Assembly (NCBI GenBank): GCA_021821565.1
Contig: JAKACI010000040.1
Coordinates: forward strand, 1-9,561
Source of the DNA: a bacterium
Lineage (GTDB): Bacteria > SZUA-79 > Acidulodesulfobacterales > Acidulodesulfobacteraceae
DNA: 9,561 nt
Direction: 5' to 3'
This document shows, in pieces, positions 1 to 9,561 of the stretch. The notes beneath the pieces are model-generated. The model made no database searches and was not told the DNA's origin. It worked only from the letters and a program-made list of their open reading frames with translations. Each line of letters opens with the position of its first letter. Positions within the stretch are counted from its first letter, which is position 1. A program made the position numbers and the translations under genes.

Positions 1-1462
1 AAATTTCTTCAGCAAGAACTTTACTATCGGTATGTATTGTAGGCGTAAAACCAGAGTCGTCTAAGATAAATCTAACTGCGGATTTACCTGCTAATCTGCC
101 TTCCGTAAATGATCCTGAAGAGAACTTATGTCCCGAAGCGCCGACGCCGTCTCCCGCCGTAAAAAGACCGTTAACTGTAGTCATTCTATTGTAACCCCAT
201 TGCCATTCCTTAGGTGCAATATCAGATGGACCGCTTACCCACATTCCGCAAGCTCCGGCATGTGAACCAAGAAGATACGGTTCGGTTGGCATAACTTCGG
301 AGTTTGTTTCTTTAGGGTCTATATCCATAGCTGCCCATAAACCGGCCTGAGCAATAGTCATATCAAGAAAATCTTCCCATGCGTCGCTTTCTAACGTTTT
401 TTTTCTCTTTTCAGGTAATGTCTCAAATAACGCCTTTATAGCTCCGCTCGTATCCATGTAGAACGGCCCGTTGCCTTCATGCCAGTCTTTCAGCATAACA
501 TGATTCCATAAACATGTTGCAGGAACATGAGATAATCCATAAGGAGCATAATCCTTAAGCATGTCTCCCCATTTCTGCATATAATCCTCTCCGTATGCAT
601 TTTTAACTCTAGATTTGAATAATGTGAACCACGCTCCTACAGGGCCATAACCGTCTTTAAATCTATTCGGAACAAATCTGTTTTCCATTGTAGTCATTTC
701 AGCGCCTGCTTCAAAACCCATAGCATAAGTAGAACCTGCATTCCACAGGGCATACCATGTTCTGCCCATACCTTCTGCCTGAGAACGCGGCCTAAAAACA
801 TTAACCGCTCCTCCGCAAGCCATCATTACGGCTTTTGCTTTATATATGTATATTTTGGCTTCTCTTAAGCTAAAACCTATAGCCCCTGCAACTCTGTTAG
901 GATTTTTTTCATCCATAAGAAGTCTGATAATGAACACCCTTTCGTAGATATTTTCTTCTCCTATAGCTTTCCTTGCCGCTTCCGCAACTAAAACTTTATA
1001 TGATTCGCCGTGAATCATTATCTGCCATTTTCCTGCCCTTAAAGGCTTGGCTCCTTCAGCTAAAGTTCTTGTATCTTCTTCATCTTCTTTCATAATGGGA
1101 AGTCCTAATTTCTCAAAAAGATGAACTGAACTATCAACATGTCTTCCTACGTCATATATAAGGTCTTCTCTTGTTATGCCCATAAGGTCGTTTGAGACCA
1201 TTTTAACGTAATCTTCGGGCTGGTTCTCGCCAAGGTAAGTGTTTATTGCCGATAAACCTTGAGCTACCGCACCGCCTCTATCAATAGCCGCTTTTTCAAC
1301 CATAGTTATTTTCATATCTTTCGGAGCCCATTTTTTAATTTCAAATGCAGCGCCGCATCCTGCCATACCTCCTCCTACAATAAGCAGGTCGGTATTTACT
1401 TCTTCAATAGTATAATTGTTTAATACTTCAGAGCTTGTTAAAGAACCTTTTTGTTCTGCCAT
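1..1462 (-). CDS. aprA: Adenylylsulfate (APS) reductase alpha subunit, 3' end cut by window edge
   Basis: FAD subunit of dissimilatory APS reductase, which interconverts APS and sulfite plus AMP in the cytoplasm together with AprB. The frame is open from ATG at 1462 to the window edge (487 codons; I read it through with no stop), so roughly three quarters of the usual ~640-660 residues are present and the C-terminus is missing. Visible features: an N-terminal FAD-binding Rossmann segment (LLIVGGGMAGCGAAFE, about residues 26-41); the AprA hallmark MENRFVPNRFKDGYGP at about 259-274, whose arginines correspond to the substrate-binding region; LLGSHAGACGMW with His at about 401, matching the catalytic histidine region; and the flavin-binding GDGVGASGHKF further on. 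A GGGG ribosome-binding stretch lies about 7 bases upstream. It is third in the order sat-aprB-aprA, but sits an unusually long 242 bases after aprB. Electron-transfer qmo genes often follow aprA, but any would lie outside the window. Confidence 0.96.
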   Translation of the reverse strand, partial: MAEQKGSLTSSEVLNNYTIEEVNTDLLIVGGGMAGCGAAFEIKKWAPKDMKITMVEKAAIDRGGAVAQGLSAINTYLGENQPEDYVKMVSNDLMGITREDLIYDVGRHVDSSVHLFEKLGLPIMKEDEEDTRTLAEGAKPLRAGKWQIMIHGESYKVLVAEAARKAIGEENIYERVFIIRLLMDEKNPNRVAGAIGFSLREAKIYIYKAKAVMMACGGAVNVFRPRSQAEGMGRTWYALWNAGSTYAMGFEAGAEMTTMENRFVPNRFKDGYGPVGAWFTLFKSRVKNAYGEDYMQKWGDMLKDYAPYGLSHVPATCLWNHVMLKDWHEGNGPFYMDTSGAIKALFETLPEKRKKTLESDAWEDFLDMTIAQAGLWAAMDIDPKETNSEVMPTEPYLLGSHAGACGMWVSGPSDIAPKEWQWGYNRMTTVNGLFTAGDGVGASGHKFSSGSFTEGRLAGKSAVRFILDDSGFTPTIHTDSKVLAEEI

Positions 1463-1704
1463 AGCAAATCCCCTTTTTTAATAATATAATTTAGGAACCG
1501 ATAAAAAATACCGTCATCACCTTAAGAATTATAAATTAATAATTATAAATTTTTTAATTACGTCAAATAATTATATCAAAGCAAGTGAACTACTTATCAA
1601 TAAATAAATTGATAAGCTTCCTGCTTCAACGTATGAAAACGTCTCATTAAGAAAATTATATATATTAATTTAATTAATATATAAATTAATATAATATTGT
1701 AATA
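1463..1704 (-). other. aprB-aprA intergenic spacer with hairpins
   Basis: This stretch has no gene. It holds a 9-bp perfect inverted repeat (CTTATCAAT / ATTGATAAG, 1593-1616, 6-base loop) whose flanks can add further imperfect pairs (GCA..GAA against TTC..TGC). Nearer aprB is an all-A/T 10-bp inverted repeat (1659-1683). Neither is followed by a clean T-run in the direction of transcription, so a strong terminator is not indicated. An mRNA processing, stability or attenuation element between the two subunit genes is possible. Confidence 0.5.
1593..1616 (-). promoter_or_regulatory. Hairpin between aprB and aprA
   Basis: Perfect 9-bp stem CTTATCAAT/ATTGATAAG with loop AAATAA, extendable by a few imperfect outer pairs. 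It would be transcribed in the aprB-aprA message about 90 bases after the aprB stop and about 130 bases before the aprA start. The symmetry is directly visible. A role in processing or stability is inference, and a DNA-binding palindrome is an alternative. Confidence 0.45.
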
Positions 1705-2139
1705 TTATTTTTTAGGAACCGATAAAGTTTTACCTGACTCATCGCACAAAATATCAGAATTTAAATCGTCTGGATTAACATCTGGTATCCCTTGATAAGG
1801 ATCAATTCCTCCTTCGGGAGTTGTCCTTATAGGAAATTTAAAACGTTTTAACGCTCCATTGCGATATTTTATAGTCCACATAATTGAATCAGAAGCTCTT
1901 AACGGAATAACCGACGACCCCATAGGGGCAAAATCTTGATAAGCTCTAACCTCAACTGCCGACTGAGGACATATTTTTACACAATTATAACATTCCCAAC
2001 ACTGTTCCGGCTCCTGATTATATGCTTTCATAATATCTTTATTAAGCACCATAAGATCATTAGGACAGATATACTGGCAAGCAGTTTTATCTCTTCCTTT
2101 GCAGCCGTCACATTTTTCCGCAATAACAAAACTTGGCAT
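1705..2139 (-). CDS. aprB: Adenylylsulfate (APS) reductase beta subunit
   Basis: Ferredoxin-like electron-transfer subunit (144 aa) that forms a heterodimer with AprA and passes electrons to its FAD. Two [4Fe-4S] cysteine sets are visible: C10-x2-C13-x7-C21-x3-C25-P, and C47-x2-C50-x2-C53-x3-C57-P. The expanded spacing between the second and third cysteines of the first set is typical of AprB. The second half (IRTTPEGGIDPYQGIPD onward) is the tail that in known structures wraps around AprA. Length is close to the family norm (~150). The start at 2139 is fixed by an excellent AAGGAGG site at 2147-2153, seven bases upstream. The gene follows sat on the same strand after 377 bases and precedes aprA. 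It may be read from the sat promoter, though possible operator repeats just upstream (2181-2210) leave room for its own control. Confidence 0.96.
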   Translation of the reverse strand: MPSFVIAEKCDGCKGRDKTACQYICPNDLMVLNKDIMKAYNQEPEQCWECYNCVKICPQSAVEVRAYQDFAPMGSSVIPLRASDSIMWTIKYRNGALKRFKFPIRTTPEGGIDPYQGIPDVNPDDLNSDILCDESGKTLSVPKK

Positions 2140-2180
2140 TTTTATACCTCCTTAAAATTACTTAAATGTTTAAATGTTAT

Positions 2181-2210
2181 GTAATATTACACTGTAACAG
2201 TTACTGTAAC
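2181..2210. promoter_or_regulatory. Candidate operator upstream of aprB
   Basis: A perfect 10-bp palindrome (GTAATATTAC) is immediately followed by two direct copies of ACTGTAAC separated by four bases, a 12-base period that puts them on nearly the same helix face. The cluster lies 42-71 bases upstream of the aprB start and is the least A/T-biased stretch of the spacer. On the minus strand the palindrome contains TAATAT, which could serve as a -10. A regulator-binding role is inferred; no known binding consensus was recognised. Confidence 0.35.
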
Positions 2211-2254
2211 CATTTTTTTGGTTTAATGTTTATATATATTTAGTCTAAGATTTA

Positions 2255-2287
2255 TATTTTAGATATATTTTAGGTATATTTTAGGTA
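2255..2287. repeat. 11-bp tandem repeat, three units
   Basis: Three consecutive units TATTTTAGATA, TATTTTAGGTA, TATTTTAGGTA (one mismatch). They lie in the sat-aprB spacer. They could be slippage products or helically phased binding sites. Confidence 0.75.
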
Positions 2288-2405
2288 TTTATTATAGTTC
2301 TATCTAAAATAATATAGACAGTTAAGATATTAATAAATAAATTAAATTAATAAAATTAATAAAAATTTTTATATATTTTTACATTAATTTATTTAATTCA
2401 TCTTT

Positions 2406-2444
2406 CAAAGTTTATAAGCAAAGTTTATAAGCAAAGTTTATAAG
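2406..2444. repeat. 13-bp perfect tandem repeat, three units
   Basis: CAAAGTTTATAAG occurs three times head to tail with no mismatch, about 70 bases beyond the sat stop codon. The perfect identity suggests a recent slippage expansion or selection as a binding array. On the transcribed strand each unit reads CTTATAAACTTTG. Confidence 0.9.
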
Positions 2445-2516
2445 ATAAATTAACATAGCAACTTAATTAATAATTAAATTAAACTTAAAATCTTAATAAC
2501 AAATATTAATAGCTTT

Positions 2517-3743
2517 TTATGTCGATTCCCCCTTAGCGGCTTTATGTAATTTTACTTCAACGTTCTCATCTTTGGAAAGATTAGAGTAATAATCTTTTAA
2601 GATTGCAAGAACTTCTGGCCTAGAAAAATGATCGGGTATATCTTTACCTTCCGATAAAAGCTTTCTAAGCATAGTTCCGCTTAAAACAAGCCTATCTTCC
2701 TTTGAATGCGGGCAAGTTCTGGTAGATGCCATCCCATCGCATTTATGACAATAAAATGTCCAATCCATTTTTAATGGCTTTAATTCAAGAGAGTCTTTAG
2801 GTATCTCGTCAAAAATTTTATGAGCATCAAACGGACCGTAATAATCTCCTACTCCGGCATGATCTCTTCCGACAATAAGGTGAGAACAACCGTAATTTTG
2901 CCTAAAAACTGCATGAAGGAGCGCTTCCCGTGGACCTGCATATCTCATTTCCATAGGGTAGCCTGCCTGAACAATTGTATTTTTTACAAAATATTTATCT
3001 ATTAATGTGTTGATTGCAACCGCTCTTACATTTGCAGGTATATCTCCGGGTTTTAATTTACCTATAAGTTGATGAATTAAAACACCATCGGTGGTTTCTA
3101 TCGCAACCTTTGCAAGGTATTCATGAGACCTATGCATTGGATTTCGAGTTTGAAAAGCTGCTATAGTGCTCCAACCTTTTTCCTCAAATATTTTTCTAAC
3201 TTCTGTCGGACGCATATAAATTTCTTTAAATTCTACAGGATAAGACCCTTCGCTTAAAACTTTAACTTTACCTGCAATATTAACATCACCCTGCGCCATA
3301 ACTTTTTGAACCCCCGGATGTTCCAAATCCGTAGTCTTAAATATTTTCAGACATTCATAAGCTTTATCTATTGAGTACTTTTCGGAAATCGTAAGAGTTC
3401 CCATAATTTCAGAAGTTTCAGGGTCTACTAGTGCAATATCATCGCCTATTTTAACAGTATCCGATTTTTCTTTAGTTGTTGAAAGAGTAATTGGAATAGG
3501 CCAGAAAGTTCCATCCCGCAAAACAAAGTTGTCACAAACGCTTTTCCAATCGTTTTTACCCATAAATCCTTCTAATGGGGTAAATGCGCCTATCCCCATC
3601 ATTATAAGATCGGATGTTTCACGAGATGTCATGCTGATTTGGTTTAGCGTCTTAGCTTTCTCTTTTGATTCTTCAAGTTCTTTGCCTGATAAAAGAAGGG
3701 GTTTTAAAATTTTCTCTTTTCCATGAGGATTAACCAATGCCAT
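2517..3743 (-). CDS. sat: Sulfate adenylyltransferase (ATP sulfurylase), dissimilatory type
   Basis: Catalyses ATP + sulfate to APS + pyrophosphate (or the reverse), the cytoplasmic entry step that feeds AprBA. The 408-aa protein has the N-terminal PUA-like domain (to about 165) followed by the nucleotidyltransferase domain. Key motifs are [11 protein letters not shown] (198-208, with the QxRNP and HxxH signatures), [12 protein letters not shown] (292-303) and SGTMLRKLL near 356-363. A zinc-type set C332-x2-C335...C344-x-H346 is seen in homo-oligomeric Sat of sulfate reducers. There is no APS-kinase domain, which fits a dissimilatory enzyme. The ATG start is supported by GGAGG at 3753-3757. 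It is the first gene of the sat-aprB-aprA array, and ppa, whose product removes pyrophosphate, is divergently placed. A strong promoter about 375 bases upstream implies a long leader. Confidence 0.97.
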
Positions 3744-4110
3744 ATATTTATTCCTCCGCAGCGTGATGATAAACTTCGTTAGATTAATTTTAAAAAATTT
3801 ATTTATTTCATTTTATTATTATATTTGTATTATTTGTATTATTATAATGCTTTACAAAATTTTAAAAATTAAATAACTCATTAAATTAAATAAATTAACA
3901 AATTTTAAAGATTAAAAATACTATTGATAATTTGATAATTCAAAAATATAAACTCAAAGTAATTAAAGAGATATATAATTTGATAATTATTATAAAGATA
4001 TAAATTCTTATAAACTCTAAATTATAAACTCTAAAGATAATTAAAATTTAAGATTATATATATTAAATATTAATTAAAAAAACAAGCATCTAAAAGATAA
4101 AATAATATAT
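3744..4110 (-). other. Long A/T-rich leader of the sat transcript
   Basis: About 370 bases between the candidate sat promoter and the sat start, with no gene on either strand. It contains the sat ribosome-binding site (GGAGG, 3753-3757) and a perfect 14-bp tandem duplication TTATAAACTCTAAA (4008-4035). No recognisable riboswitch core or terminator hairpin was seen. It may be a genuine long 5' leader, or transcription may start closer to sat from a weaker promoter I cannot single out in this sequence. Confidence 0.4.
4008..4035. repeat. 14-bp perfect tandem duplication
   Basis: TTATAAACTCTAAA occurs twice head to tail inside the presumed sat leader. It is typical of the short tandem duplications scattered through the intergenic DNA of this window. 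Confidence 0.85.
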
Positions 4111-4117
4111 TCAAAGT

Positions 4118-4145
4118 ATTATACATTCTAAAATAAAAAAGTCAA
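4118..4145 (-). promoter_or_regulatory. Sigma-70-type promoter for sat-aprB-aprA
   Basis: Read on the minus strand: TTGACT (-35, 4140-4145), a 16-base spacer, then TATAAT (-10, 4118-4123). This is the best promoter match in the window. Transcription would begin near 4111 and run into sat. The -35 box lies only 13 bases from the left end of the inserted repeat element E1. Confidence 0.65.
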
Positions 4146-4153
4146 TAGTTTTT

Positions 4154-4400
4154 TTAGACCCAAAATTGCCGATAGAAAATTATTTTCTGGATGAGTCGTC
4201 TAAATGCCGACGGCTTTAAAGCGTCCCCCGCTTTCGCGGGAATGACTTTGCAAGTTTTTAAGTTTTCATCTTTCGCGGGAATGGCTCTGCAGGTTTTTAA
4301 GTTTTCATCCAACTGGTGTCATTCCCGCGAAAGCGGGAATCCAGTATTGATAATACTTTAAAGTAATTTTAAAAATCTCTATCGGCAATTTTAGGTTAGA
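4154..4400. mobile_element. E1: 237-bp miniature inverted-repeat element with 5-bp target duplication
   Basis: Termini are CCCAAAATTGCCGATAGA (4159-4176) and TCTATCGGCAATTTTAGG (4378-4395), an 18-bp inverted repeat with one mismatch, flanked directly by TTAGA on both sides (4154-4158 and 4396-4400). There is no coding capacity, so it would depend on a transposase elsewhere. The two ends differ further in: end A continues GAAAATTATTTTCTGGATGAG, and end B (inverted) continues GAGATTTTTAAAA. Both extensions recur in the second copy E2, so they define an orientation. The centre carries an extra palindromic block (4227-4340) absent from E2. The element lies between the divergent sat and ppa promoters. 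Confidence 0.85.
4227..4340. repeat. Palindromic GC-richer block nested in E1
   Basis: A perfect 20-bp inverted repeat, CCCGCTTTCGCGGGAATGAC (4227-4246) against its complement (4318-4337), brackets a 39-bp tandem duplication (4231-4269 and 4270-4308, three mismatches). The right arm is itself a hairpin, ATTCCCGC-GAAA-GCGGGAAT (4321-4340). The sequence resembles the widespread intergenic repeats of the ATTCCCGCGAAAGCGGGAAT type. Its absence from E2 suggests it is an insertion inside E1 or was lost from E2. Confidence 0.75.
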
Positions 4401-4424
4401 CCTTGAACAAAATTAAAAATTGTC

Positions 4425-4452
4425 TTGTAAAAGATTTTTCAAACTATATAAT
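4425..4452 (+). promoter_or_regulatory. Candidate ppa promoter
   Basis: TTGTAA (4425-4430), a 16-base spacer and TATAAT (4447-4452) place the start near 4459, about 95 bases before the ppa ATG. The -10 is perfect and the -35 matches four of six positions. It begins 29 bases after the right end of E1. Confidence 0.5.
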
Positions 4453-4553
4453 ATGTATAACAAACAATAAAATTAATATGATTTAAATTTAAAAATCTGA
4501 ATTATCTGATTAACTTAATTATAATAAATATAAATATATAAAGGAGCTAATTT

Positions 4554-5084
4554 ATGGATTTTAAAAAAATAGAATCAGGCGATAATCCGCCTGAATATTT
4601 AAACGCAATTATCGAAATTCCTAAGGACGGAAGCGTAAAATATGAACTTGATAAAAATTCGGGTATTATGGCTGTTGACAGATTTTTATATACGGCTATG
4701 TTTTACCCTTTTAACTATGGGTTTATCCCTAAAACTTTAGCGTCCGACAAAGACCCTTTGGATATTATTGTAATTTCATCAATGTCTGTTATGCCAGGCT
4801 GTCTTTTAAAAGTTAGGGTCATCGGAATGCTTGAAATGGAAGACGAGAATGGAAAAGATGAAAAAGTCATATCGGTTCCGATTAGCAAAATTGACGCCGG
4901 TTTTGACGATATACAAGACATAGATGATGTTCCAAAAGTATTTTTAGATCAAATCAGGCATTTCTTCGAAAACTACAAAACGCTTGAACCTGAAAAATGG
5001 GTTAAATTAGAAAACTTTGTAAATAAAGAAAAAGCTATGAAAGTTATTTTAGAAACAATAGAAAAATATAAAGAAAATAATTAA
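4554..5084 (+). CDS. ppa: Inorganic pyrophosphatase, family I (soluble)
   Basis: Hydrolyses pyrophosphate to two phosphates in the cytoplasm with Mg2+. At 176 aa it has the usual bacterial family I length (~175). Conserved features are in the expected order: E21, K29 and E31 (EIPKDGSVKYELD), R43, FYPFNYGFIP with Y51 and Y55, the metal-binding aspartates of DKDPLDIIV (D65, D67, D70), then acidic positions around 97-104 and the late Tyr in ENYKTLEPEKW. The start is supported by AAGGAG at 4541-4546. It is divergent from sat, whose forward reaction makes pyrophosphate, so the pair is functionally coherent: Ppa would make sulfate activation effectively irreversible. All catalytic residues I looked for are present. 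Confidence 0.95.
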   Translation: MDFKKIESGDNPPEYLNAIIEIPKDGSVKYELDKNSGIMAVDRFLYTAMFYPFNYGFIPKTLASDKDPLDIIVISSMSVMPGCLLKVRVIGMLEMEDENGKDEKVISVPISKIDAGFDDIQDIDDVPKVFLDQIRHFFENYKTLEPEKWVKLENFVNKEKAMKVILETIEKYKENN

Positions 5085-5134
5085 TTAACAGTTTTAACAA
5101 TAAATCTATTAATTTTAATAAATCTGTTAATTTT
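5083..5134 (+). terminator. Possible weak terminator after ppa
   Basis: AATTAACAG (5083-5091) and CTGTTAATT (5124-5132) form a 9-bp inverted repeat with a 32-base loop, followed by a short T-run. The loop is long and the stem A/T-rich, so efficiency is doubtful. The right arm overlaps the stop codon of the truncated methyltransferase frame on the other strand. Confidence 0.3.
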
Positions 5135-6084
5135 CCCAAAATTGCCGATAGAAAATTATTTCCTGTCTTATTTCTTCAGCAAGTGCACTATTTAAAACCA
5201 ATTCTTTTTTGCTGTGGTAAGAAGTGCCAATAAATCTTTTGCGAAAATCGGTTAAATCTTTTGTGTAATCAAACCACAGAGCTGTTAGTTGATGTAAATC
5301 AGCGTATTCGTAAGAGGTAACATAAGGCGGCGAAGTAACGATCAAACTAACTGAGTTATTTTCAGTAGATATTGTCCGAGCATCTGCGCAATAAAGTTTA
5401 CTTGATATTTCGAAATAATTTTTTTCTTTCAATAATTTATAAAATTGAGCATTTCCTCTCAACATCATTTTGACCTGTTTATAAAAAGTTGGTATTGAGT
5501 CAGAAGGTTTTTTGTTAATGTCCCTCGTAGGTTTATTGCTTTTGCAACCAAATTGAGCAGTTTTTTAATATATTGGAAAACCCGCAATATAAGAAATCTC
5601 TTATATCTTGGTTTTCCAATTTTGATATTTCAACAAAAATAAAAGTGAGTTTTCTTTTTTCTTCAGGTTTAAACCAATAATCTATTCTTTCATGCTTGAG
5701 AACGTTTATTTTTGTATTTTTGTTATAAGTATCTAATTTTTTCTTTAAGGCAATAAATGCTTCTTCAATTTCCTCAGACTCAATTGGAGCAATTTTTGCC
5801 TTTGTTATCAAAACAGCAACAGGGTTTATATCAACCCCAACCGATAACCTTCCCATTACTTTTGACTCAACAAGCGTTGTCCCTCAGCCGCCAAAAGGAT
5901 CAACAACCAAATCACCCTCTTTAGTGTATTTTTCTACTAAACGAGAAACTATTTGTGGAATAAATTTAGCGGGATAACGATGATAACCGTGCGTAATATA
6001 AGCCGTGTCTTTTCGCGTTTTATCTGCAAAAGACCACGAATGATCAATTTTTGTATTTGAAAATAATGTAATTATTCGGCTCAT
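5127..6084 (-). pseudogene. Decayed site-specific DNA methyltransferase (N4/N6 type)
   Basis: Remnant of an AdoMet-dependent DNA methyltransferase, probably of a restriction-modification system. Reading from ATG at 6084: HGYHRYPAKFIPQ (about residues 32-44), then motif I VDPFGG-stop-GTTLVE, where an in-frame TGA (5884-5886) replaces the Ser expected in the family's GSGTT. The frame continues with GVDINPVAVL to WLQK near 5541. A frameshift in an A-run (5540-5543; one extra or two missing bases) separates it from the continuation SNKPTRDINKKPSD...QVKMMLRGN. The catalytic motif IV TSPPY is at 5322-5336, in VTSPPYVTSYEYADLHQL. The frame then runs into a fragment of the E1/E2 element end, which supplies the last codons (EIIFYRQFWEN), so the usual C-terminal third is missing. 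With three independent lesions the gene is almost certainly inactive. TGA recoding is unlikely because the frameshift and truncation also break the gene. Confidence 0.85.
5135..5165. mobile_element. E1/E2-family terminal fragment (end A)
   Basis: CCCAAAATTGCCGATAGA followed by AAATTATT and CCTG matches end A of E1 over 31 bases with one mismatch (T to C at 5162), then similarity stops. No matching right terminus is present further right. The fragment joins the 3' end of the methyltransferase remnant and encodes its final residues on the minus strand. It is either a leftover of a deleted copy or the end of a larger related element. Confidence 0.75.
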
Positions 6085-6086
6085 AA

Positions 6087-6212
6087 TTATTTTTTTATTA
6101 AGTCGTTTATTAAGTCGGCAGTGGTAACACCAATAACTTTGGCAATTTTTACTTTGCAATCAAAAATAAATTCATGGTTTTCGTCAGAAAGTAAAGTTCG
6201 GATTTGTCTAAC
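6087..6212 (-). pseudogene. C-terminal gene remnant between tRNA-Ser and the methyltransferase
   Basis: Directly after the tRNA CCA end an open frame of about 41 codons (VRQIRTLLSDENHEFIFDCK... to ...TTADLINDLIKK) runs to a TAA, with only two bases before the methyltransferase ATG at 6084. The composition is protein-like and the tight spacing is typical of a co-translated partner. The frame can be extended upstream only by reading through the tRNA, so the 5' part of the gene appears lost. A restriction endonuclease or other R-M partner is a guess from position only; the family was not recognised. Confidence 0.45.
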
Positions 6213-6304
6213 TGGCGGAGAGAGAGGGATTCGAACCCCCGGTAAGCTTTCGCCTACAATTGATTTCGAGTCAATCGCCTTCAACCGGACTCGGCCATCT
6301 CTCC
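6213..6304 (-). tRNA. tRNA-Ser, anticodon CGA
   Basis: Class II tRNA of 92 bases including an encoded CCA (6213-6215). Acceptor stem GGAGAGA/TCTCTCC with G discriminator; D-arm GCCGAGTCCGGTTGAAGGC; anticodon stem ATTGA/TCAAT with loop CTCGAAA, giving anticodon CGA (6266-6268) that reads UCG. A long variable arm (GTAGGC/GCTTAC) marks Ser, and the T-arm GGGGGTTCGAATCCCTC has one G-T pair. All stems close. Its 3' end abuts the remnants of a possible restriction-modification locus, a position where integrating elements often insert. Confidence 0.96.
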
Positions 6305-6317
6305 TTTGCTTTAATAT

Positions 6318-6346
6318 ATAATATAATAATTAAAGGTAGCGTTCAA
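6318..6346 (-). promoter_or_regulatory. tRNA-Ser promoter
   Basis: On the minus strand TTGAAC (6341-6346), a 17-base spacer and TATTAT (6318-6323) place the start near 6311, seven bases before the tRNA. Spacing and position are ideal for a stable-RNA promoter. Confidence 0.65.
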
Positions 6347-6391
6347 TATTTAATTAATTCTTTTTTATATTTATTTTATTCTTTATTATAT

Positions 6392-6411
6392 TTTTATCTA
6401 ATTTTATCTAA
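6392..6411. repeat. 10-bp tandem duplication
   Basis: TTTTATCTAA twice head to tail, in the A/T-rich gap between tlpA and the tRNA. No other signal was seen in that gap apart from the tRNA promoter. Confidence 0.7.
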
Positions 6412-6451
6412 TTCTTTGTTTATTACTTAATTTATTACTTTGTTTATTTAA

Positions 6452-7036
6452 TTATTTCTTATTGTTTCCTGCTATTTTTTTAAATTCATAACTTAAAAAT
6501 CCAGGAGGCAATTCTCCCGTAAAATGCGCAACAACATATCCTTTTTTGTTAATGATAAAAGATTGCGGTATTTCGTAAACATTGCCGTATTCTCTGTCAA
6601 TATGTTCATTAGCCATACCGACAGGATAAGTTATTATGCCCCCTTTGAATGTTTTAATAAAATGAGCTACATAATTAGGTCCTTGATTATTCACCGATAA
6701 ACCGATAATTTGAAACCCTTCTTTTCTATGAGATTTATAAAATTTTTCAAGCCTCGGTATTTCCGCTCTGCATGGAGGACACCATGTTGCCCAGAAATTT
6801 ACGAGCACTATCTCCCCTCTATATTTTTTTAGCGTTAATGTAAGTCCGGGATAATTAATACTTTTCACTTTAAAAGCAGGGGCAAAAGCTTTATTTCCCG
6901 AAACTGGTATTTTTTTACCGCTTTTGCTATGCCCTCCCCATAATAAATCAGGAAGTTTAATTATATAAATAGAGGCTAAAATAATAGCTGTTATAAATAC
7001 TATAAGCTTTATAGATTGTTTTATTTTATATTGCAA
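6452..7036 (-). CDS. Membrane-anchored TlpA/ResA-like thiol-disulfide oxidoreductase
   Basis: A 194-aa thioredoxin-fold protein of the AlkC/TSA-Redoxin TlpA-like class. An N-terminal hydrophobic helix (about residues 9-27, IKLIVFITAIILASIYII) with no clear cleavage site suggests a membrane anchor and an extracytoplasmic domain. The fold begins with APAFKVKSINYPGLTLTL (52-69), then VLVNFWATWCPPCRAEIP with active-site C86-P-P-C89, and the cis-proline loop EIPQSF (P157). Such proteins reduce disulfides in cytochrome c maturation or general envelope thiol metabolism; the specific substrate cannot be told here. The start is TTG (7034-7036), supported by AAGGA at 7045-7049 eight bases upstream, and an in-frame TAA just beyond excludes a longer version. 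It is monocistronic, with its own candidate promoter. Confidence 0.9.
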   Translation of the reverse strand: MQYKIKQSIKLIVFITAIILASIYIIKLPDLLWGGHSKSGKKIPVSGNKAFAPAFKVKSINYPGLTLTLKKYRGEIVLVNFWATWCPPCRAEIPRLEKFYKSHRKEGFQIIGLSVNNQGPNYVAHFIKTFKGGIITYPVGMANEHIDREYGNVYEIPQSFIINKKGYVVAHFTGELPPGFLSYEFKKIAGNNKK

Positions 7037-7125
7037 TTTAATTTTCCTTTATTTTATTATATTTTTATTTTATTATATTAATATATTAATTAATTAATAG
7101 TATGACAAATGTATGGCAAATTTTT

Positions 7126-7154
7126 AGAATATTCTTTTATCATCCGTCCGTCAA
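7126..7154 (-). promoter_or_regulatory. Candidate promoter of the tlpA-like gene
   Basis: On the minus strand TTGACG (7149-7154), a 17-base spacer and TATTCT (7126-7131) predict a start near 7119 and a leader of about 80 bases before the TTG codon. The -35 is good and the -10 moderate. Confidence 0.45.
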
Positions 7155-7296
7155 AGCTTGCTTGGCTGGTTTAAACTTAGTATATTATACATATTATAAC
7201 TAATGCTTTATATTTATTTATAAATAAATATTATAATATTTTAATAATTTTATCGCAACTTAATAATTGTTTTTAAAGTTAACTTTTTTTATATTT

Positions 7297-7320
7297 TTAT
7301 TTAATTATTTAATTATTTAA
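7297..7320. repeat. 8-bp tandem repeat, three units
   Basis: TTATTTAA three times head to tail, in the tlpA-galU spacer. It is simple A/T sequence of low information and is recorded as another short tandem array. Confidence 0.6.
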
Positions 7321-7397
7321 TTATAAAAAATACCAATTTTATGATATATTTATTTAAAACATAAAAATGTAATGTAATATATTTGCAAAACATTAAA

Positions 7398-7435
7398 CAT
7401 AAAACACTTTTTATAACATAAAACACTTTTTATAA
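7398..7435. repeat. 19-bp perfect tandem duplication upstream of galU
   Basis: CATAAAACACTTTTTATAA occurs twice head to tail without mismatch, ending 64 bases before the galU start. The identical copies suggest a recent duplication. Each copy carries a possible -10-like TATAA, so the duplication may have doubled a promoter part or an operator. Confidence 0.9.
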
Positions 7436-7499
7436 TACGATAATACAAGATAATACAATATGATATATAATTATAAACTAATTATAGGAGTTTCTATAG

Positions 7500-8363
7500 A
7501 TGAAAGTCAATAAGGCTGTATTTCCCGCCGCGGGTCTCGGAACAAGATTATTGCCGATTACAAAATCTATACCGAAAGAAATGCTGATTCTCGTAGATAA
7601 GCCTTTAATACAATACGGCGTAGAAGAATGTATAGAATCTGAAATTCAAGATATAATAATAATCACAGGCAGAGGGAAAACCGCAATTGAAGACTATTTT
7701 GACAGGTCTATAGAACATGAGGTGCTTCTTAAGAAAAAAGGTAAACATGACCTGTTAAAATCAGTTAATGATATTGCCAGTATGATTAATTTCTCATATA
7801 CAAGACAAAAAGAAGCATTAGGTTTAGGACATGCAATATTATGCGCTCAAAATTTAATAGGAGATGAACCTTTTTCTATAATATTAAGTGATGATATAAT
7901 AGACGCTAAGGTGCCTGTTATGAAACAAATGATAGAAATATATAAAAAATACAGATACAGCATTTTAGCTGTTCAAAAAGTAAAAGACGAAGATATCCCA
8001 AAATATGGTATAATAAAAGGAATAGAAATAGAAAAAGGGATATATAAAATAGAAAATTTAGTAGAAAAACCTGAATTGGCAGAAGCACCTTCCAATCTTG
8101 CAATAATAGGAAGATATATATTAACTCCGAGAATTTTTGATTTTTTAAAAGAAACTAAACCCGGAAAGGGAGGAGAGATTCAATTGACCGATGCAATCAA
8201 ATCTCTTCTTAGCGTTCAGCCTGTTTACGCGTTAGAATTTGAGGGCACACGATATGACGGAGGCAATAAACTTGAACTTCTTGAAGCTCAGATTACCTTT
8301 GGGCTTAAAAACGAAGAATTAAAAGATGGACTGATAAATTTTATTCAAAACATTAATTTATAA
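7500..8363 (+). CDS. galU: UTP-glucose-1-phosphate uridylyltransferase
   Basis: Makes UDP-glucose from UTP and glucose-1-phosphate, feeding envelope polysaccharide and lipopolysaccharide synthesis in the cytoplasm. The 287 aa match the usual bacterial GalU length. Signatures: nucleotide-binding AAGLGTRLLPITKSIPKEML (10-29), with the arginine and lysine of the family; RQKEALGLGHAIL (102-114); the metal/sugar-phosphate LSDDI (129-133); LVEKPELAEAPSNLAIIGRY (187-206); GGEIQLTDAI (224-233); and the late GTRYDGGNKLE (249-259). The ATG is supported by AGGAG at 7486-7490, nine bases upstream. It stands alone between divergent tlpA and a repeat-rich gap, so no operon partner is visible. A closely related nucleotidyltransferase such as RfbA/GlmU-type is less likely given the GalU-specific motifs. 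Confidence 0.95.
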   Translation: MKVNKAVFPAAGLGTRLLPITKSIPKEMLILVDKPLIQYGVEECIESEIQDIIIITGRGKTAIEDYFDRSIEHEVLLKKKGKHDLLKSVNDIASMINFSYTRQKEALGLGHAILCAQNLIGDEPFSIILSDDIIDAKVPVMKQMIEIYKKYRYSILAVQKVKDEDIPKYGIIKGIEIEKGIYKIENLVEKPELAEAPSNLAIIGRYILTPRIFDFLKETKPGKGGEIQLTDAIKSLLSVQPVYALEFEGTRYDGGNKLELLEAQITFGLKNEELKDGLINFIQNINL

Positions 8364-8424
8364 TAAAACATTATTCAATGATACTCTTTAATTCTTCCAT
8401 AGAAACTATCAATGATATTTCAAT

Positions 8425-8448
8425 GATAAGTAATACGATAAGTAATAC
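8425..8448. repeat. 12-bp perfect tandem duplication
   Basis: GATAAGTAATAC twice head to tail downstream of galU, amid several looser TCAATGATA copies. Confidence 0.8.
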
Positions 8449-8471
8449 ATAGATAAGCAACACCTGATTCC

Positions 8472-8645
8472 TGCTTTTCTTCGGAATGACTGTATATAGC
8501 GGATGAAATTATAAAATATTCTCTAAGTCATTCCCGCGTAAGCTGGAAAGTTCTAAAGACAGAAATACACGTCGTTTCTGCCCATGAGGCTATAAGCCAT
8601 ATAAACGCATGCCGTTTATGGCGAAGCGGTCATCCGGAAAATAAA
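8472..8645. repeat. Degenerate hairpin-rich repeat segment
   Basis: GGAATGAC (8483-8490) and GTCATTCCCGCG (8527-8538) are diverged relatives of the E1 inner block. They are followed by nested small inverted repeats: CAGAAA/TTTCTG, GGCT/AGCC, and GCCAT-AT-AAACG against CGTTTATGGC (8596-8622, a two-base bulge). The segment is GC-richer than its surroundings and has no open frame worth calling. It is probably an eroded intergenic repeat; a structured RNA is possible but unsupported. Confidence 0.45.
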
Positions 8646-8689
8646 TTTCTATGAAAGAGATGACAGCTAATAGATAATAGATAATAATG

Positions 8690-8824
8690 ATGCTCCCAAA
8701 ATTGCCGATAGAGATTATTAAAAGTGCTTTAATGTTTTAATAAAGATTAAAAAGATTGGATGAGCCGTCTAAATACCGACGGCTCATCCAGAATAGAATT
8801 TTCTATCGGCAATTTTGGGATGCT
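8690..8824. mobile_element. E2: 125-bp miniature inverted-repeat element with 5-bp target duplication
   Basis: Perfect 18-bp terminal inverted repeats, CCCAAAATTGCCGATAGA (8695-8712) and TCTATCGGCAATTTTGGG (8802-8819), are flanked by identical ATGCT on both sides (8690-8694 and 8820-8824). It is in the opposite orientation to E1: its right side carries end A (TTCTGGATGAG in complement) and its left side end B. The interior is a perfect 12-bp hairpin GGATGAGCCGTC/GACGGCTCATCC (8758-8769 and 8778-8789). It has no coding capacity. It lies about 30 bases upstream of the probable hsp20 promoter. Confidence 0.88.
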
Positions 8825-8851
8825 ATGGTGACTACAAAATAAAAAATAAAA

Positions 8852-8860
8852 TGTTATAAT
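8852..8860 (+). promoter_or_regulatory. Extended -10 promoter upstream of hsp20
   Basis: TGTTATAAT is a perfect TGnTATAAT extended -10. No good -35 sits 16-18 bases upstream. A second TATAAT is at 8876-8881. No CIRCE palindrome or heat-shock sigma pattern was recognised. The start would fall near 8867, giving a leader of about 95 bases. Confidence 0.4.
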
Positions 8861-8961
8861 ATCAACTCGGTGGGTTATAATTTTAGAATAATAAAAGCGG
8901 TGAATTTAAGAAAAGAAAAATATTTTAATATAAAAATACAAATAATGGGAATTAAAATATT

Positions 8962-9465
8962 ATGAATCATCATAATAACGCCAGCGATAATTATAATAAC
9001 AAGATTAGAAAATTTAAAAAAGAAGTGGAAAAATTATTCAGGGAACTGTTTGAATCAATTTATCTTGAAGAATTATCAGCTTCTTTCAGCGCTAATACTT
9101 CTCCCATTGATATTTACAATACAAAAAACAAACTTATCATTGAACTCGAGGTTCCGGGCGTTAGGAAAGAAGATATAGCTATAATTATACAGGACAACAT
9201 ATTGATTATAAGATGGTTTTTGATTTCCGATTTAAACAATTTTAGTAATTTTAATAAAGAACACATCAAAAACCACGAAAATGTTAGATTTTTATGTATG
9301 GAAAGAAGATTTGGCAAATTTGAAAAATTTTTACTTTTACCTTTCAGTCCTGCAAGTAAAAATATTAAAGCGATATTATCAAACGGCGTGCTAAAAATTA
9401 TATTTAATATAGAAAATCAAAATATTTATTCAAAAATAAATATTGAAATTGATTATTTTAAATAA
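8962..9465 (+). CDS. Hsp20/alpha-crystallin family small heat-shock protein
   Basis: ATP-independent cytoplasmic holdase chaperone, 167 aa. After a variable, Asn-rich and Lys-rich N-terminus, the alpha-crystallin domain starts at about residue 47 (SPIDIYNTKNKLIIELEVPGV), followed by KEDIAIIIQDNILII, a loop, then MERRFGKFEKFLLLPF (about 113-128) and the family-typical SNGVLKIIF (144-152). A C-terminal KINIEI resembles the I-x-I motif used for oligomer assembly. The segment after the central strand (RWFLISDLNNFSNFNK) is unusually hydrophobic where the family normally has a polar R/K-E-rich stretch, so this is a divergent member. The ribosome-binding site is weak (GGGA at 8947-8950, 11 bases away). 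The next gene starts 85 bases downstream on the same strand and may be co-transcribed. Confidence 0.85.
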   Translation: MNHHNNASDNYNNKIRKFKKEVEKLFRELFESIYLEELSASFSANTSPIDIYNTKNKLIIELEVPGVRKEDIAIIIQDNILIIRWFLISDLNNFSNFNKEHIKNHENVRFLCMERRFGKFEKFLLLPFSPASKNIKAILSNGVLKIIFNIENQNIYSKINIEIDYFK

Positions 9466-9489
9466 TTATTTAATAATATAAAAATATTT

Positions 9490-9512
9490 ATTATATTATA
9501 TTATATTATATT
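9490..9512. repeat. Pentanucleotide tandem repeat (ATTAT)
   Basis: Four full ATTAT units plus a partial fifth lie in the short gap between hsp20 and the next gene. Pentamer tracts are prone to slippage, and this one lies about 40 bases upstream of the start codon at 9551. Confidence 0.75.
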
Positions 9513-9550
9513 GTTCTTACACTAATTTACTTTACAGGAGATATATTTAT

Positions 9551-9561
9551 ATGACCATTAC
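9551..9561 (+). CDS. Start of an unidentified gene, cut by the window edge
   Basis: An ATG at 9551 is preceded by a good AGGAG at 9536-9540, ten bases upstream. Only three codons (M-T-I) and two further bases are visible. The product cannot be identified. The same strand and short gap suggest it could be co-transcribed with the small heat-shock gene. Confidence 0.5.

Follow-up and report, generated by a model that had tools for sequence, protein, structure and literature searches.

An IS1380-type miniature element family lying in part at a fixed distance upstream of predicted sigma70 promoters in relatives of Candidatus Acididesulfobacter

What moves the short inverted-repeat elements found beside the sulfate adenylyltransferase gene (sat) of an acidophilic sulfate reducer, and why does one of them end 13 bp before the predicted promoter of that gene? 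The question is raised by a contig of 9,561 nucleotides (JAKACI010000040.1 of assembly GCA_021821565.1, positions 1 to 9,561), referred to here over its whole length as the window, which carries two complete elements, E1 and E2, and a lone element end. We propose that they belong to a miniature family derived from IS1380, which is moved in trans, joins its target with a 5-bp stagger and inserts partly at a fixed spot upstream of sigma70 promoters; we put the probability of this reading at about 0.88. The host is a relative of Candidatus Acididesulfobacter, judging from its Sat protein, which matches 24 loci at 83–89% identity, including Candidatus Acididesulfobacter diazotrophicus AP1 and the metagenome-assembled genome SZUA-79. 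The 24 genomes with these matches are the relatives used for all family searches. The elements in the window are as follows (strand given where it applies).

4154 to 4158: TTAGA target duplication left of E1, exact
4159 to 4395: E1, complete IS1380-type miniature element of 237 bp, end A on the left and end B on the right, termini with 0 and 1 mismatch and an exact target duplication, same family as the 109 paired sites described below
4396 to 4400: TTAGA target duplication right of E1, exact
5135 to 5165, plus strand: lone end A, lying over the final codons of a disrupted DNA methylase gene
8690 to 8694: ATGCT target duplication left of E2, exact
8695 to 8819: E2, complete element of 125 bp, same family by its termini, target duplication and inverted repeats, orientation opposite to E1
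8820 to 8824: ATGCT target duplication right of E2, exact

The 18-bp terminus CCCAAAATTGCCGATAGA is present without mismatch at 4159, 5135 and 8695 on the plus strand and at 8802 on the minus strand. At up to three mismatches the window has five terminus matches, compared with 0.01 expected from shuffled sequences. A preliminary description of this DNA had stated that the two complete copies share 18-bp termini; both are indeed complete, but the right terminus of E1 (4378, minus strand, CCTAAAAT...) agrees in only 17 of 18 positions. The distinct inner extensions and the opposite orientation that it described are borne out by inverted repeats of 57 nt (84%) and 45 nt (87%), and both pairs of 5-bp duplications are exact, as it had reported. 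The third site was correctly read as end A only: 5135–5165 is 97% identical to 4159–4189 and has no partner end. The interior of E2 holds a hairpin module (GGATGAGCCGTC...GACGGCTCATCC).

In the relatives, the terminus gives 430 matches (up to two mismatches) in 23 of the 24 genomes, compared with 10 for the reversed pattern; the richest are genomes G001 and G023, with 97 and 117 matches. From the retrieved DNA 109 independent paired copies (up to 320 bp) were collected, with main sizes of about 165 and 234 bp. The preliminary description had argued for transposition rather than a static palindrome, and had named two observations that would speak for the opposite, namely other copies without 5-bp duplications and the same copies fixed at orthologous positions. 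Neither is what we see. Exact 5-bp duplications flank 53 of the 109 sites, whereas lengths of 2, 3, 4, 6, 7, 8 and 9 bp give 13, 6, 5, 9, 2, 0 and 0. In an earlier set of 85 pairs, 46 had exact duplications, whereas random re-pairing of the flanks gave 1.2 on average and 6 at most. Empty sites align with the joined flanks across the junction: locus L201 with L173 (96% over 200 bp, no gaps), L178 with L167 (97%, two gaps), L023 with L022 (93%, no gaps) and L088 with L349 (91%, three gaps). The L023 copy is also absent from the orthologous L024 and L021. These empty sites are those of other family copies; a relative with a clean empty site at precisely the position of E1 or E2 was not found. The copy interiors hold inverted modules, often like ATTCCCGC...GCGGGAAT. 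The hairpin modules (ATTCCCGC...GCGGGAAT, GGATGAGCCGTC...GACGGCTCATCC, and TTGCGAGCGAAGCGAGGCAA in L023) differ between copies, including E1, and the ends are constant, so that the interiors look modular by their sequence.

Mobilisation in trans, which the preliminary description had considered necessary, fits the evidence: no open reading frame of at least 80 amino acids overlaps E1 or E2, and the search it had recommended for a full-length element with the same ends, run in the relatives, returned one with a transposase. This element, L231 (genome G021), is 1632 bp long, is flanked by TTTAC/TTTAC and has an open frame of 431 codons. Its left terminus is CCCAAAATTGCCGATAGA in 18 of 18 positions and continues to agree with end A further inward (AATTATTT); the right terminus, CTGTAATTTGCCGATAGA, agrees in 14 of 18. 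The transposase matches NF033539 (IS1380-family transposase) at 228 bits (cut-off 180), and PF13701 as well. NF033539 has matches in 11 of the 24 genomes, in six of them above the curated cut-off, and several of these IS1380 loci bear related termini. L233 (G020) is a relative (77% protein identity) without an exact duplication. At 465–972 of L275 (G015), 508 bp lie between the same two end types as in L231, without a target duplication; only 54 residues are kept, from the start of the transposase, at 76% identity, and the locus is a possible internal-deletion intermediate between full-length and miniature copies. In G016 (L279–L297) contigs break at six ends of one type and eight of the other in a repeated element with L231-like end regions. 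Many contigs end about 110 bp inside this element, which is collapsed in the assembly, and four pairs of contig ends are joined by matching 5-bp duplications. Its near-identical ends suggest recent activity. On these comparisons of ends and transposase, IS1380 is the insertion sequence (IS) family to which we assign E1 and E2; the preliminary description had named none. Other candidates for a partner were rejected. The 14 PF01609 matches in 10 genomes show no terminus within three mismatches; ISAs1 and IS1634 elements in this set likewise lack it. Twelve terminus pairs more than 300 bp apart enclose ordinary genes or spacers and no transposase. The 18-mer also occurs in four viral contigs, by chance as we read their sequence, with no second terminus within three mismatches, and E1 has no match in plasmids.

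Two genes in the window start beyond an element end, each behind a predicted promoter that points away from the element:

4140 to 4145, minus strand: -35 hexamer TTGACT predicted for sat, its start 13 bp from the E1 end (5-bp duplication plus 8), promoter score 11/12 at offset 13
4118 to 4123, minus strand: -10 hexamer TATAAT predicted for sat, with a spacer of 16, as read from the sequence
2517 to 3743, minus strand: sat, open reading frame downstream of the promoter beside E1, named from its translation
8855 to 8860, plus strand: TATAAT (predicted -10) beside E2, 35 bp outside its end, preceded by TGT and with a weak -35
8962 to 9465, plus strand: small heat-shock (Hsp20-like) gene, open reading frame downstream of E2, named by reading the translation rather than by a family search

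Upstream of sat, the copies in the window, L005 and L023 each end exactly 13 bp before TTGACT, with different duplications (TTAGA, TCAAA and ATAAA, respectively). L021, L022 and L024 carry TTGACT and the sequence beyond it with no insert. The element that lies this far from the hexamer in L027 belongs to a second family and is flanked by TCAAA (left) and TTAAA (right). The E2 promoter, facing the Hsp20-like gene, scores 9/12 with the -35 at offset 13, below the 10/12 used in the main count. At 9600–9810 of L005, also upstream of sat, a partial terminus (GGCAATTTTGGG) adjoins TCAAA and is followed by a complete element; from the sequence it looks as if two copies took the same target in turn.

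Palindromic ends at a constant promoter distance, upstream of sat in four species (one with the second-family element), are also what fixed regulatory hairpins or operators would look like, and such structures would not be transposons. The exact 5-bp duplications at sat differ by species, however, and the empty orthologous sites, the varied interiors and the full-length copy with a transposase contradict this explanation, which we regard as extremely improbable.

Because the 13-bp spacing is shared upstream of sat, it was tested over all ends. With ends near contig edges left out, the test used 336 distinct ends (up to two mismatches, at least 60 nt of flank) from the retrieved DNA rather than all 430 genome matches; merging at 70% flank identity gave 313 clusters. 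The window and L005 share one of these clusters for their sat sites, which are counted separately among the 109 paired sites. Outward-facing TTGAC[AT] lies at offset 13 in 22 of the 313 clusters, and at offsets 12, 14 and 15 in 3, 7 and 2; all other offsets together give 13 (0–2 each), and the reverse orientation shows no peak among the 313. TATAAT lies 35, 36 or 37 bp outside the end in 9, 18 and 12 cases (39 of 313), compared with 0–6, mostly 1–3, at any other offset. The offset was first noticed on 46 elements with target duplications, which are part of the 313. In the discovery set (75 ends) TTGAC[AT] lies at 12–15 in 5 and elsewhere in 2; in 138 other early ends the counts are 18 and 6; and in 100 ends retrieved after the peak had been noticed they are 11 at 12–15 and 5 at other offsets. 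The same 100 later ends have TATAAT at 35–37 in 12 cases, compared with 0.30 per offset.

When both boxes are scored together, 44 of the 313 ends, from 15 of the 23 contributing genomes, reach at least 10/12, whereas shifted windows give 2.2 on average. In this count the promoter side of E1 is merged with that of L005, and no other end in the window reaches the score. Counted by site, 48 of the 109 reach 9/12 at 12–15 on one side and none on both, compared with 9.5 in shifted windows. Among the full-length-like copies, a score of 10/12 at offset 13 is reached by L231, L279 and L351; by eye, TTGAC is at 14 in L264, a fragment, and in L275, the deletion form. The miniature copies show no clear bias for one end toward the promoter (6 compared with 5 classifiable, 28 sites). 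This fixed position was absent from the preliminary description.

A gene start is commoner beside ends with a promoter: an open reading frame begins within 350 nt of 36 of the 44 ends scoring at least 10/12, compared with 79 of the 191 scoring below 8 (the 78 ends scoring 8–9 belong to neither group). This would fit insertion anywhere upstream of genes followed by selection, which retains the copies just upstream of promoters as insulating or harmless; the internal hairpins could serve as terminators. Selection of this kind would be expected to leave a broad zone, whereas the peak is 1–3 bp wide, and the CCTTAAAT family in the same DNA is without a peak. We consider this explanation improbable.

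The preferred reading, an IS1380-derived family inserting partly at a fixed spot upstream of promoters, can be put as a sequence of steps. The full-length element would make an IS1380-type DDE transposase that recognises the shared 18-bp terminus, and the shared ends suggest that this transposase would also move the gene-less copies in trans. Copies are joined to a target cut with a 5-bp stagger, as the duplications, the empty sites and the full-length element show. At roughly a quarter to a third of the sites, as a statistical result on predicted promoters, the insertion occupies a single fixed position upstream of a sigma70 promoter that faces away from the element. With the -10 hexamer taken to begin at -12, the duplication falls at roughly -48 to -44, leaving 8 bp to the -35 hexamer, and so lies on the upstream edge of the core promoter complex. 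Here the transposase may be guided by the RNA polymerase holoenzyme, or by DNA that the holoenzyme shapes. This is the simplest cause, and we infer it with slightly better than even confidence.

A transposase that binds a box resembling TTGAC, 8 bp past the staggered cut, would also strike promoters, as carriers of the box and not via polymerase. The sharpness of the -35 peak would suit such a protein; among the sites with duplications the promoter count is 12 at offset 13 and 0 at 12 and 14, and the terminus itself contains TTGCC seven bases in. A reader of TTGAC would have no need of the -10, however. TATAAT is found at 35, 36 and 37 in 6, 15 and 9 of the 261 ends without TTGA at 12–15, and in 3, 10 and 7 of the 197 ends with a best -35 match of at most 3/6 (20 compared with about 4 expected; 1.28 per offset elsewhere). 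TGn precedes 16 of the 39 TATAATs at 35–37, which likewise speaks against direct reading of the box. That the -10 counts even with a poor -35 favours polymerase; the argument is limited by the poorest class (-35 match of at most 2/6), which is small, with TATAAT at 35–37 in 4 of 80 compared with about 1. Direct recognition of the box is thus a tentative alternative, which we would give about one chance in three.

Several observations weigh against the IS1380-derived, promoter-directed family as we describe it. The promoters are all predictions from sequence alone. At more than half of the sites no promoter lies at the fixed distance, and the same is true of the window's lone end and of the opposite sides of E1 and E2. 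Among ends of the promoter-facing type in full-length-like copies (n = 10), three score 10/12 at offset 13, two score 8–9 there and five do not. An IS1380-type terminus, CCTTAAATCACCGTTAGA, in the same DNA (47 clusters) shows no such promoter peak, so the trait is not general to the IS1380 family, and one Aliarcobacter IS1380 with a 5-bp duplication has no promoter beside the element. The full-length partner is known from a relative (G021), none being shown in the window's own genome, and the G016 copies are known from their end regions, not their interior. In the richest genomes, G001 and G023, no retrieved IS1380 locus bears the terminus, which means that their helper has escaped assembly, has been lost or belongs to another kind or subgroup.

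The family resembles IS1380 elements such as IS1247, ISPme1 and ISEcp1 in that its partner is a 1.6-kb element with an NF033539 and PF13701 transposase. Duplications in the IS1380 family are 4–5 bp long; here the peak is at 5 bp only, as in TTTAC/TTTAC of L231. The Aliarcobacter IS1380 is similar in that its termini begin with CCC. IS1247 is given with direct repeats of 5 and a length of 1672 bp (PMC3281130). Unlike these elements, the copies here are gene-less miniatures, and two genomes have about 100 terminus matches each. In this they resemble Correia elements, MITEAba12 and MITEPye1, which are short, gene-less and intergenic, have terminal inverted repeats with target duplications, and are mobilised in trans. 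MITEPye1 is tied to IS1182 (PMC11578231). By term search the word IS1380 is absent from a 2024 review of miniature inverted-repeat transposable elements (MITEs), whose consulted passages describe an intergenic preference and no fixed promoter offset (PMC10969869). We found no report of an IS1380 element with MITE derivatives or promoter-upstream insertion in the literature seen, partly as excerpts (including PMC3542288, PMC4133298, PMC9330008, PMC11578231, PMC3281130, PMC10433421, PMC10969869 and PMC9208149); this is weak evidence of absence, as subscription papers were mostly outside its scope.

The closest parallel in position is with Mutator-type elements. According to a 2014 paper, TnGBS/ISLre2 and some ISKra4 elements, two Mutator-type lineages, insert upstream of sigmaA promoters; TnGBS and related ISs lie 15–17 bp before the -35, with a peak 16 bp from the right inverted repeat and duplications of 8 or 9 bp; and contact with the polymerase initiation complex was proposed, the specificity being termed unique and atypical among prokaryotic elements (PMC3942029). 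ISLre2/TnGBS (p-MULT 3) and part of ISKra4 (p-MULT 4) thus share with our family a fixed promoter distance from the element end, and for TnGBS/ISLre2 this distance less the duplication is 7–8 bp to the -35, compared with 8 bp here. Theirs is a Mutator-superfamily transposase with 8–9-bp duplications, whereas here an IS1380-family transposase goes with a 5-bp duplication, the -35 is at 13 bp, and the elements are mostly miniature and lie both ways round. Given its IS1380-family transposase and 5-bp duplication, the family works like the promoter-targeting Mutator elements and is not one of them. It is an even bet, in our view, that an IS1380 lineage of acidophilic sulfate reducers evolved a transposase docking on sigma70 RNA polymerase independently of the Mutator-type elements, that the miniatures spread thereby at -48 to -44, and that the joint falls about 8 bp before the -35, nearly as in TnGBS/ISLre2, because the same polymerase edge sets both.

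As a MITE family of a known IS family, the elements are ordinary in kind; the insertion rule is one that we found in print only for another transposase superfamily. If the reading holds, a second transposase family would use nearly the same promoter-proximal edge, which would make this a more general strategy and open the question of whether RNA polymerase itself is the landing mark. Miniature elements would repeatedly rebuild the DNA just upstream of promoters in an uncultured clade, with the promoter of the core sulfate-reduction gene sat among them, and could act as natural promoter pointers in genomes without expression data.

The window also holds a feature that the preliminary description lacked:

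8386 to 8664: remnant of a second IS1380-type miniature family with terminus CTTTAATTCTTCCATAGA, left terminus with 0 mismatches, right end decayed and its boundary approximate

Both end regions of this remnant resemble the L027 element upstream of sat, which is itself a second-family (CTTTAATTCTTCCATAGA) element at about 9599–9762. Second-family termini form 10 clusters, one of them at offset 13, too few for conclusions on targeting. L126/L234 is an IS1380 with a similar terminus, CTTTAATCCTTCCATAGA. In the CCCAAATCCCGATTTAGA family TATAAT lies at 36–37 in 4 of 22, with no TTGAC peak. Of four plasmid IS1380s retrieved, one gave ends with a 5-bp duplication.

Reading of the translations gives aprA, aprB, sat, a pyrophosphatase, a TlpA-like protein, UDP-glucose pyrophosphorylase and the small heat-shock protein as genes of the window. 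A tRNA is the sole Rfam match at the gathering threshold. A term search of the main text of a paper on Acidulodesulfobacterales found neither transposons nor repeats mentioned (PMC6776010). The DNA methylase gene that the lone end overlaps is split into three separate minus-strand open reading frames (5127–6159), and PF01555 matches only its 5884–6159 piece. Four IS1380 transposases of the relatives (G001:C192, G017:C112, G016:C3 and G002:C177) lose frame at the same profile position (about 351–355), either by shared decay or by a programmed frameshift.

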